In this document: positions 3,567 to 25,141 of the stretch, in pieces
Position numbering within the stretch: the first letter of the stretch is position 1
How the letters are laid out: every line of letters starts with the position of its first letter
DNA from: Candidatus Zixiibacteriota bacterium
GTDB lineage: Bacteria > Zixibacteria > MSB-5A5 > GN15 > FEB-12
Length of the DNA: 64,000 nt
Assembly: GCA_022571985.1 (NCBI GenBank)
Contig: JACZWU010000006.1
Coordinates: forward strand, 1-64,000
Reading direction: 5' to 3'
Position numbers and translations under genes: made by a program
The notes under the pieces: model-generated
What the model saw: only the letters and a program-made list of their open reading frames with translations
The model's database searches: none
What the model was told of the DNA's origin: nothing

Positions 3567-3850
3567 CCATGTGCACCCACCGTCGAACGGCTGTTTTAGT
3601 GGTCGAAAAGTCAGCCAGCTCCAGCCGGGCGATCCCGCAACACACAGAAAAATCTGTCTACCGCTGCTACCTCCCGGTCCTGACGGGGTTCACAGGTTTC
3701 TGTTGTACAGGACCCAGCCTTCAACACCACTTAACTTACGGCCAGCCAAAACAAGCACTGCCCTCGGGTGGGAGTTCGATCCCGGTAGAGCGGATTCCGG
3801 GCAACAGGGCACCGCTAACTCCCCATCTAGCACACAGGACTAAAGTCTGT
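3567..3850 (-). ncRNA. ffs: signal recognition particle RNA, large (Alu-containing) type
   Basis: Read on the minus strand, the universal SRP core is plain. GTCAGGACCGGGAGGTAGCAGCGGTA occupies roughly 3657-3683 on the plus strand and contains the conserved GCAG/AGCAGC asymmetric loop and GGAGG-type tetraloop region that binds Ffh. The 5' part (about 3765-3840) carries the Alu-type block, with the segments GTGCTAG, GGGGAGTTAGCGGTGCCCTGT and a GAACTCCC return strand, as in Bacillus-type 6S-size SRP RNAs. A GTGCAC near 3571-3576 closes the long stem with a GTGC in the 5' half. Total length of about 280 nt matches the large bacterial class. Ends are approximate to about 10 nt. Open frames overlapping it are spurious. 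Confidence 0.93.
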
Positions 3851-22424: not shown

Positions 22425-22802
22425 ATGGATAAGAAAACCGTTTTAGTTGTAGATGACGAAGAAATAATCAGAGACTTTTTGTTTGAAGTCTTAAATGATG
22501 ATTTTGAAGTCAGCACCGCTAGCGACGGTGACGAGGCTATTGACAAGCTTAAAGAGAAAAGCTACGACCTGGTTATAACGGACCTTAAAATGCCGCGTGT
22601 TTCCGGCGACGAAGTTGTCAGATTCGCCAAACAATCAGACCCCGAAGCCAAAGTCATTGTTATTACAGGCTACTCGAGTTTGTACTCAGTAAGCAAATCA
22701 GCCAACCACGGCGCCAGCGCTTTTTTGTCTAAGCCTTTCAGCATTAAAGAACTCATGCAGACAGTATCAAACTGCCTGAGCGACACTAAAGCCTCTCAGT
22801 GA
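22425..22802 (+). CDS. single-domain response regulator
   Basis: 125 residues form one CheY-like receiver. Acidic pair D10/D11, phosphoacceptor D53 (VITDLKMP), T81 (VITGYSS) and K103 (LSKPF) are all present, so it should be phosphorylatable. No output domain is attached; it must act by protein contact or pass phosphate onward. It follows the kinase and is its likely partner. The end overlaps pyrE on the other strand by 7 nt. Confidence 0.93.
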   Translation: MDKKTVLVVDDEEIIRDFLFEVLNDDFEVSTASDGDEAIDKLKEKSYDLVITDLKMPRVSGDEVVRFAKQSDPEAKVIVITGYSSLYSVSKSANHGASAFLSKPFSIKELMQTVSNCLSDTKASQ

Positions 22803-23368
22803 ACTCTGCTGCCTCTTTGAGTGAGAGGCTCATCTTTTTTGCACATCGGACATTCTTCCGGCGACCACGAAACTGCATTGATTGAACCTACTGAAAACTG
22901 CGGATAATCAAACTTTATCTGCCCACCCGAGCGGTCCAGCATCAAGCCTATGCCGCAAATATCAGCTTCTCTGGAATTACAAAGTTCAATCATTTCTTTA
23001 AGCGACCGGCCAGTAGTCAGAATATCATCTACGATTAAAACTTTTTCACCAGGGCTTATTTCAAAACCGCGCTTGAGAGTCCTGCCGGTCTCCCCCGGTT
23101 CAGAATAGACTGCTTCAATTCCCAGATACCGGGCAACTTCGTAAGCTATAATCACTCCCCCCAAAGTAGGACCTATTATTGTCCGGATATTCTTGCCGCT
23201 AAACTCATCAGCTATCATTTTACAGATTTTTGTGCAGACCTGTGGGTTTTTGAGCAGCGTGAATTTTTCATAGTAAATGTCGGAGTGCCTGCCCGAGGTC
23301 AGCTTGAAATGCCCGCGCAAAAGCGCCCCGGAATCTTCAAATATCTTCAATATTTCAGAGTTATTCAT
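22796..23368 (-). CDS. pyrE: orotate phosphoribosyltransferase
   Basis: 190 residues, the usual PyrE length. The PRPP-binding motif VLIVDDILTTGRS lies near 108-120. The region TSGRHSDIYYEKFTLLKNP near the N-terminus and GPTLGGVIIAYEVARYLG are family hallmarks. The catalytic-loop segment reads SEPGETGRTLKRGF rather than the more common Lys-rich version, which is seen in some shorter OPRTs. The enzyme joins orotate and PRPP to OMP in pyrimidine synthesis. Its ATG overlaps the acpS stop (ATGA), so it is translationally coupled to it. The C-terminal part contains a Cys pair (CPMCKK), possibly metal-binding. Confidence 0.93.
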   Translation of the reverse strand: MNNSEILKIFEDSGALLRGHFKLTSGRHSDIYYEKFTLLKNPQVCTKICKMIADEFSGKNIRTIIGPTLGGVIIAYEVARYLGIEAVYSEPGETGRTLKRGFEISPGEKVLIVDDILTTGRSLKEMIELCNSREADICGIGLMLDRSGGQIKFDYPQFSVGSINAVSWSPEECPMCKKDEPLTQRGSRVH

Positions 23369-23739
23369 TTTCCCGCCGTAATTATCGCTACCGCTGTAGC
23401 ATAATGTTTCTCATGACTGATAGAAATAAGACACTTTTTGTGACTGAGTTTTTCTTCGGCCAGACCATTAAAATCCAGACATGGATTTCCTGTCTTGTCG
23501 TTTATGATTTCCAAGCTGCTGTAAGCCGGACGGTTTGTCAAAAACCGGCCAAGACATTTAATCACTGCTTCTTTGGCAGCGAATCTGCCGGCCAGAAAAT
23601 TAACCTTGTCGCCTCTTTGAGCGTATGTTACTAATTCTCTTTGGCCAAGTATGCGATTTGCGAATCTGGCGCCATGTTTTTTCAGAATTTTCCTGATTCT
23701 GTCTGTTTCAACCAGGTCAATTCCGACTGACTCAGTCAA
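23365..23739 (-). CDS. acpS: holo-[acyl-carrier-protein] synthase
   Basis: 124 residues, the standard AcpS size. The magnesium motif GIDLVETDRIRKI (Asp at about 8) and FLAGRFAAKEAVIKCLG (Glu at about 57) are present. A C-terminal strand HKKCLISISHEKHYATAVAII follows the family pattern. The enzyme moves 4'-phosphopantetheine from CoA onto acyl carrier protein. It overlaps pyrE by 4 nt as the first gene of a two-gene operon. Pairing with pyrE is unusual; in many genomes acpS neighbours are fatty-acid or alr/nnrD genes. Confidence 0.94.
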   Translation of the reverse strand: MTESVGIDLVETDRIRKILKKHGARFANRILGQRELVTYAQRGDKVNFLAGRFAAKEAVIKCLGRFLTNRPAYSSLEIINDKTGNPCLDFNGLAEEKLSHKKCLISISHEKHYATAVAIITAGK

Positions 23740-23817: not shown

Positions 23818-23845
23818 TTGCCAATAGCATTTAATCAGTTATCTT
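23818..23845 (+). promoter_or_regulatory. promoter of structured RNA
   Basis: TTGCCA (23818-23823), a 16-nt spacer and TATCTT (23840-23845) precede the first structured element by about 15-20 nt. The spacing agrees with other promoters seen in this window. Confidence 0.55.
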
Positions 23846-23851
23846 TAGAAG

Positions 23852-24086
23852 CGATAACAGAAAAAAGTGTTAGGGCGGGGACGCCATTTGAAAATCTCTA
23901 ACACTTAACTAATGAAGGTTATTTCTTATCTGCTGAGCTTTCGCCGTGACTCGTCTTTATTGACGATAGCGATATCAACATGCAGTGAGCGGTTGTAAAA
24001 ACCCTTTACCGTATGCGTTACGGAGTTAATTCAAATTGCAACCCCGCTCCATTAAATAATCCCGCGACCCAGCGGGGTTTTTTATG
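23852..24086 (+). ncRNA. candidate structured non-coding RNA
   Basis: Between divergent acpS and a convergent gene there is no ORF but a series of helices. P1 is AGTGTTAG/CTAACACT (23866-23873 with 23898-23905), enclosing GGCG-GGGA-CGCC, a GNRA tetraloop only on this strand. P2 is CTGC/GCAG, TCGC/GCGA and TCGTC/GACGA (23930-23985). P3 is GGTTGTAA/TTGCAACC (23991-23998 with 24036-24043), which needs a G.U pair valid only on the plus strand, enclosing CCGTA/TACGG. An intrinsic terminator follows. A promoter-like element lies just upstream. It does not fit tmRNA, RNase P, 6S or a known riboswitch as far as I can judge. Ends are estimates. Confidence 0.55.
24040..24084 (+). terminator. intrinsic terminator of the structured RNA
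   Basis: AACCCCGCT (24040-24048) pairs with AGCGGGGTT (24071-24079), and a T-run extends to 24083. Four nucleotides of the 5' arm (AACC) are shared with helix P3 of the RNA, so the two helices compete at their edge. There is no T-run on the minus strand. Confidence 0.85.
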
Positions 24087-24126: not shown

Positions 24127-24771
24127 TTAGCCCAGCGGACTTGGATCTATTAAATCTTTAAATATCTTTTCGAAATTGGTCTGTTCTTCTTTCTTTACTG
24201 TAATAGCAAAGGCAAAAGAAAACCCTGAAGAAATAAAATATAAGCGGTCTTTTTTGATTTCAACAACTCCGATTTCACGTTTAACCTCTGCCCCCGGCAG
24301 CCTCATAAACATTTCTATCAGGTCGGTCAGCCCTTTGAACAAAGACGGAAAGTATTTTTTGAAATTGAAAGCGTCCTCGTCATTTTCAAACTCCCCGCCC
24401 TTATTCAAAAAGAAAACTTTCTCAACCCCGGCAATTGCCATTAGCTCACTCTGAAAAGTTGGCTCGGTCAGTACCCTAATTCTCTGAGTCTGAGTACTTG
24501 CTACTTGTTTTGGTTTTTGATCCTTGATAAGAAGCATCACCTGGGAATGCTGGTGTTTGATGATTTCTTCCATCGCAGCCTGTTCTTCAGGAGAATCAAC
24601 ACACCTCTCAAGTTTCTTTTCTACTTTATGGAGAACTCTGCCCCCGTCTAAGATGGTAGTCGTCACCCGGGGGTACGGCCGGTAGGCGTATTCGGTCTGT
24701 ATCTGCAGAGAAGTCCCGTTTCTGTTGACCAGCGAGGTCCTTCCGCAGGGAATGAATTCTGTCGTAGACAT
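24127..24771 (-). CDS. uncharacterised protein with possible roadblock/LC7-like domain
   Basis: The 214-residue protein is not firmly recognised. The N-terminal 80 residues are mixed beta/charged (FIPCGRTSLVNRNGTSLQIQTEYAYRP). The C-terminal part (about 115-214) runs AIAGVEKVFFLN..., a long helix LFKGLTDLIEMFMRLP and strands GVVEIKKDRLYFISSGFSFAFAI. This alternation is what small profilin-like roadblock/LC7 domains show, which regulate GTPases or polarity in bacteria. I treat that as a hypothesis. No signal peptide is present, so it is cytoplasmic. It is a single gene flanked by repeats and the structured RNA. Confidence 0.65.
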   Translation of the reverse strand: MSTTEFIPCGRTSLVNRNGTSLQIQTEYAYRPYPRVTTTILDGGRVLHKVEKKLERCVDSPEEQAAMEEIIKHQHSQVMLLIKDQKPKQVASTQTQRIRVLTEPTFQSELMAIAGVEKVFFLNKGGEFENDEDAFNFKKYFPSLFKGLTDLIEMFMRLPGAEVKREIGVVEIKKDRLYFISSGFSFAFAITVKKEEQTNFEKIFKDLIDPSPLG

Positions 24772-24871
24772 ATCTTATTTATGGTCCAAAATAATGGTTT
24801 ATCTTGTTTATATCGACAGAAACGACAGTTGGAATAGTTCGATAGAATTGCTGTTTAGTAAGTTCTTGTAG

Positions 24872-25083
24872 GTCAGAACCTCACGTACTCGTGATGGTCC
24901 TGACGATTCTTACCCCTATAATAAGCAGCAGGACTTTGCCATGCATTGTCTGCCACTGTGGGCGGCAGACGCCCTCGTCTGCCCCTCTAATTTACTTGCC
25001 CATTAAACATTTGGCGTGTTCCTGACGATTCTGTCATTGCGAACTCCATGAAATGGGGTGTGGCAATCTCGTCTTTTTCATGG
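24872..25083. repeat. cluster of dispersed intergenic repeats
   Basis: Within the 370-bp gap 24772-25141 are three elements. A long imperfect hairpin (24872-24904) has arms GTCAGAACC..CACG and CGTG..GGTCCTGAC. A perfect CCC-loop hairpin with stem GGCAGACG and loop CCCT lies at 24964-24983. A GTCATTGCGAACTCC...GGCAATCTC repeat spans about 25032-25071, a motif widespread in uncultured bacteria. Nothing coding is seen. Confidence 0.7.
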
Positions 25084-25141
25084 GCGACCGCCGCGACGTG
25101 TCCCGGAATCCAGCCGCTAATACGAACAGAAAGATAAAAAC

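Follow-up and report, generated by a model that had tools for sequence, protein, structure and literature searches.

A single-copy structured RNA of Zixibacteria and related phyla, a probable functional counterpart of 6S RNA

6S RNA and an RNA gene of Zixibacteria

Bacterial RNA polymerase is shut down by 6S RNA, which imitates an open promoter; in the sigma-70 open complex the bubble measures 13-14 nt. 6S RNA is regarded as almost universal, and yet whole phyla appear to be without it. The molecule forms a rod, about 200 nt long, whose central bubble mimics the open promoter (PMC12005410). Synthesis of its product RNA begins within the 5′ bubble strand, beside a conserved A, which lies just upstream of the start site in 6S RNAs (PMC8414754), and the product of B. 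subtilis 6S-1 begins GUUCGG (PMC12005410). There is also a precedent for a divergent, lineage-specific 6S RNA that the general model misses, namely 6S-Flavo (RF01685) of Bacteroidetes (PMC2864571).

Here we examined an intergenic locus in a window of 64,000 nt (the whole stretch of DNA analysed) from a Candidatus Zixiibacteriota genome. It holds a gene of roughly 200 bases whose RNA, with a conserved part of about 185 nt, probably works like 6S RNA and fills its role in Zixibacteria and several related phyla; we put this at roughly 0.7. Since covariance models link the two families in neither direction, the proposal concerns function and not membership in RF00013, and the RNA may either descend from 6S RNA, with changes too great for recognition, or have converged on it. 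It is a testable candidate for the 6S RNA missing from at least four phyla. Should it not be a 6S RNA, it would still be a phylum-wide structured RNA that Rfam 15 lacks.

The gene, its neighbours and its distribution

The 235-nt stretch from 23852 to 24086 is intergenic and, as an earlier note on this DNA had held, non-coding. It lies between acpS-pyrE on the left (22796-23739) and a 214-aa gene on the right (24127-24771), both on the minus strand. No gene lies downstream on the plus strand, which agrees with the same note's view that this is not an mRNA leader. The promoter and the terminator proposed there were both recovered as sequence elements flanking the conserved RNA:

23818 to 23845, plus strand: promoter-like site of sigma-70 type, with TTGCCA (23818-23823), a 16-nt spacer and TATCTT (23840-23845)
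23870 to 24052, plus strand: conserved RNA, with a covariance-model match across all 186 positions
24058 to 24083, plus strand: intrinsic terminator-like site, CCCGC...GCGGG followed by U6

From the position of the promoter-like site, transcription would be expected to start near 23852. Both ends recur in the family: 97 of 118 copies have a TTGC element no more than 70 nt before the RNA (20.7 in shuffles), and 100 of 118 have a terminator hairpin or U-run directly 3′ of the closing helix P1 (8.6 in shuffles).

About 16-20 of 25 loci keep the order acpS/pyrE, RNA, RomY-like gene with minus-strand genes on both flanks; in other phyla the gene neighbours differ. We take the RNA as an independent gene and not a leader. 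The 214-aa protein (minus strand) resembles RomY weakly at its N-terminus (E 3e-6, below the cut-off). In about 20 of 25 loci its gene is the neighbour of the RNA, and in most of these another conserved gene comes next, apparently encoding a ribonucleotide reductase C-terminus as judged by eye. Several inverted repeats occur in the spacer at 24800-25140, among them GGCAGACGCCCTCGTCTGCC (24964-24983), together with a TCATTGCGA...GTGGCAATCTCGTC segment resembling a dispersed repeat, to which just one further, loose match was found in the window.

The RNA gene is new to the Rfam 15 catalogue, as the earlier note had suspected. No family was matched by cmscan at the locus, either at gathering cut-offs or with E up to 10, nor by 20 diverse copies of the RNA, RF00013 and RF01685 included; 6S-Flavo was likewise without a covariance-model match in the window. 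The best weak match at the locus was Trp_leader (22.2 bits, cut-off 41), an identity that we rejected because the score is below the cut-off and is driven by the terminator. Identification as tmRNA, RNase P RNA or SRP RNA was also rejected, as all three are located elsewhere in the host genome and the locus matches none of them. Across the whole window, cmscan found SRP RNA and two tRNAs only; the SRP RNA, of the large bacterial type, lies at 3569-3835 on the minus strand (186 bits, full length).

Of 60 relatives ranging from the same genus to the same order, 52 had the element in a DNA search, each at a single place (in one of the 52 the match was split into two pieces). With a first covariance model built from these 52 copies, the RNA was detected as a single copy in 118 of 132 genomes of Candidatus Zixiibacteriota, in one class, with E-values reaching about 1e-12 for the most distant full-length copies. 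In a pattern scan for the conserved blocks, almost all of the named records that had them belonged to this phylum. A second model, built from 98 copies, detected full-length copies outside the phylum in three of 119 other genomes sampled, and searches of the phyla of those three genomes returned the RNA in 15 of 17, 4 of 4 and 1 of 1 genomes. The RNA is kept as a single copy in Zixibacteria and at least three further phyla. Thirteen members of the phylum, some of them draft genomes, gave no match even with laxer filters; since two of these (G124 and G125) are rated 100% complete, true absence or strong divergence is possible there. The RNA also occurs on record DYGG01000002.1, titled Ignavibacterium sp., a title that is probably mislabelled. 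One family of another phylum carries a 141-nt version (L170:1501-1641, L171:1501-1642), which keeps both arms, the bubble and helix P3 and is without the kink-turn and the terminal stem.

The conserved fold

The plus strand folds at -75.9 kcal/mol (z -5.0 against shuffles), whereas the minus strand folds more poorly, at -65.2 (z -3.0). The conserved fold is one long rod in which a central bubble separates the closing arm from an apical arm that has a kink-turn motif:

23873 to 23880 / 24042 to 24049, plus strand: P1, closing helix, 8 bp
23886 to 23898 / 24023 to 24036, plus strand: P2, closing arm, about 12 bp, conserved fold with covariation
23899 to 23912, plus strand: central bubble, 5′ strand, UAACACUUAACUAA
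24009 to 24022, plus strand: central bubble, 3′ strand, 13-17 nt in all 118 copies
23913 to 23918 (UGAAGG) / 24003 to 24008 (CCUUUA), plus strand: P3, the most conserved helix, nearly invariant
23921 to 23928 / 23986 to 23993 and 23930 to 23933 / 23982 to 23985, plus strand: P4-P5, conserved fold with covariation
23942 to 23971, plus strand: apical kink-turn motif, with CGC (23942-23944), a CGU bulge, GA (23948-23949) opposite UA (23967-23968), and GCG (23969-23971)
23952 to 23965, plus strand: P7, terminal stem-loop, with double changes in all four pairs

This rod is proven by covariation, which is higher than in any of 500 shuffles or any slid control. When 98 copies were aligned by the model structure, an alignment that is fitted to the structure being tested, 93.0% of the cells were paired (46-52% in slid controls), 37 of 46 pairs had double changes with 691 double-change cells (222 in shuffles), and the covariation score was 0.428 (0.180 in shuffles). 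Because of that fitting, the stronger test is provided by 20 copies from other phyla, for which the structure had been fixed beforehand from Zixibacteria, although the copies were nonetheless aligned to the model: 93.3% of the cells were paired (46-49% in slid controls), with double changes in 35 of 46 pairs. P1 in these copies was 98.8% paired, with double changes in all eight pairs and two to four pair types per position. The first MAFFT alignment, fitted to no structure, likewise had 89.9% paired cells against 44-54% in slid controls; RNAalifold returned an incomplete fold from it because MAFFT had misplaced P1 and P2, and the structure-aware model was used instead. Over the conserved pairs of 118 copies, 446 G.U cells against 109 A.C cells settle the plus strand.

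The earlier note had thus rightly described a structured plus-strand RNA. However, its three local helices are a different matter: the hairpin GGCG-GGGA-CGCC (23874-23885), the pairing AGUGUUAG:CUAACACU (23866-23873/23898-23905) and the hairpin CCGUA-UGCGU-UACGG (24009-24023) can all be formed in the window, but they are confined to members of its genus (L001-L003) and absent from the other 49 aligned relatives, and the long-range rod uses their bases in different pairings. The GGGA tetraloop hairpin and its partners were accordingly rejected as the family fold. The strand that the note had read from the GNRA loop and a G.U pair was correct even though the helices underlying that argument are genus-only, and compensatory changes, which it had proposed to look for among relatives, occur in the rod.

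The 5′ strand of the bubble measures 14 nt in 96 of the 118 copies, the others lying within 13-16 nt, and most copies have (U)AACA at its start. P3 is nearly invariant, but compensated replacements of its A-U pairs by U-A or G-C occur in one Zixibacterial cell and, over two pairs, in seven outgroup cells; between P3 and P4-P5 lies an asymmetric loop with UGUAAAAAC on its 3′ side. As a candidate for the hairpin that 6S RNA has opposite its 5′ bubble strand, GUAAA-AACCC-UUUAC can form in most Zixibacteria, but it competes with P3 and is not kept in other phyla; we rejected it as the main fold since the compensated changes support P3 instead. The apical motif shares with kink-turns of the Kt-7/Kt-23 type a three-nucleotide bulge, G.A then A.N pairs and flanking helices, a likeness of sequence signature alone. 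The bulged-strand GA is present in 111 of 114 copies and the opposite-strand NA in 113 of 114, and at position 2n most Zixibacteria have U or C, whereas G prevails in the copies from other phyla.

Comparison with 6S RNA and rival explanations

In its anatomy the RNA agrees with 6S RNA (RF00013) in being a single rod of nearly 200 nt with both ends together in a closing arm, an unpaired central bubble between two imperfect arms, and an apical arm; like 6S RNA it has one gene per genome with its own promoter. The bubble, 14 × ~14 nt in nearly all of the 118 copies, is close in size to that of the sigma-70 open complex, and (A)AC|A stands at its edge, where the 6S product RNA starts. The putative template-strand edge reads (C)UAAC|A in this RNA and GAGCCAAC|A, at the same place, in 6S RNAs of neighbouring phyla, and the junction of closing arm and bubble reads CUCUAACA and GAGCCAACA, respectively. 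The AACA motif is short, however, which tells against the 6S reading. The closing arm is about 10 nt shorter than that of 6S RNA, the bubble is followed by the covarying helix UGAAGG/CCUUUA, and the apical arm has the kink-turn signature; we know of no 6S counterpart for the nearly invariant P3 or the kink-turn. Canonical 6S RNAs of neighbouring phyla have CCCUG/CGGGG closing ends and a 3′ ACCUG..CAGGU hairpin, whereas the Zixibacterial RNA is without both. The GAGCCAACA block is strong in canonical 6S RNAs of other phyla (L177-L188), and in several of these genomes the score stays under the Rfam cut-off.

Covariance models keep the two families apart. RF00013 gave no match to the RNA at a useful score in the window, in 20 copies or in carrier genomes; a model of 11 6S RNAs from neighbouring phyla, which detects E. 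coli 6S at 6e-13, did not match it; and in the reverse search the model of the Zixibacterial RNA matched no 6S RNAs. Although the sequence lies outside the 6S models, the earlier note's remark that the RNA fits no common small RNA is probably mistaken where function is concerned, since its conserved anatomy matches that of 6S RNA.

The distributions of the two RNAs are complementary. The host genome has RNase P, tmRNA and SRP RNA and no match to 6S RNA. RF00013 was found in none of the 60 relatives, searched with strict filters, nor in any of 14 non-Zixibacterial carriers of the RNA, and it is present in 16 of 26 genomes without the RNA. The Fisher p for this exclusion is 1e-4 by genome and 0.037 when each phylum is counted once, which is the fairer figure. 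The exclusion is not absolute, as the other 10 of the 26 are also without detectable 6S RNA. Among the open-access papers searched, none names both 6S RNA and Zixibacteria.

The alternative to a 6S-like role that carries most weight is a housekeeping RNA of a new class with no connection to RNA polymerase, such as an RNP scaffold with a kink-turn that binds an L7Ae-type protein; its bubble would then be an internal loop for binding a protein or a ligand. The lack of a covariance-model link to 6S would be expected of such an RNA, and the kink-turn signature points to specific recognition, as do the AAUGAAGG/CCUUUA and CGC..GA/GCG blocks, which hardly vary. We nevertheless think it rather unlikely, given the constant 14-nt bubble with AAC|A at its edge, the complementary distribution with 6S, and the 141-nt version in L170 and L171, in which the apical kink-turn region has been lost while the arms and the bubble remain. 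A broader proposition, tentative but somewhat less so, is that the RNA represents a class universal to a group of related phyla and without homology to 6S RNA, being either an independently evolved promoter-mimicking regulator of the polymerase or a kink-turn housekeeping RNP.

Other explanations fare worse. Base-pairing small RNAs are usually narrow in distribution. A trans-acting RNA of this kind could well be an independent transcription unit with an intrinsic terminator, but nearly every base here lies in a conserved helix or a loop of fixed size and the fold is kept over four phyla, so that we regard this as improbable. A cis-acting leader, attenuator or riboswitch would account for the 3′ terminator and the sub-threshold Trp_leader match; it is largely refuted by orientation, since about 20 of 25 loci have their downstream genes on the other strand, and other phyla show a different gene context, leaving it highly implausible. 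Chance folding of an ordinary intergenic spacer is refuted by the covariation described above, and its probability is negligible.

If the RNA does act as a 6S RNA, it would be transcribed from its own promoter of the primary-sigma type, and the rod with its 14-nt bubble would imitate an open promoter and, probably during stationary phase, sit in the active site of the housekeeping polymerase. Release would follow when the polymerase takes the 5′ bubble strand as template, with a predicted start opposite C23902 and a putative product RNA 5′-GUUAGAGAUUUUCAAAU, beginning 5′-GUUAGAGAUUUUC. With the C of AAC|A as +1, the bubble would extend from -10 to +4 and P3 would run from -11. A 6S-like role would mean that RNA polymerase accepts a wider range of shapes as a promoter mimic, and would point to the essential features, namely a bubble of some 14 nt that has AAC|A at its edge. 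The 5′ leader AGUGUUAG (23866-23873) is, in the genus of the window alone, exactly complementary to CUAACACU (23898-23905), which holds the proposed template start, and pairing between the two could mask that site.
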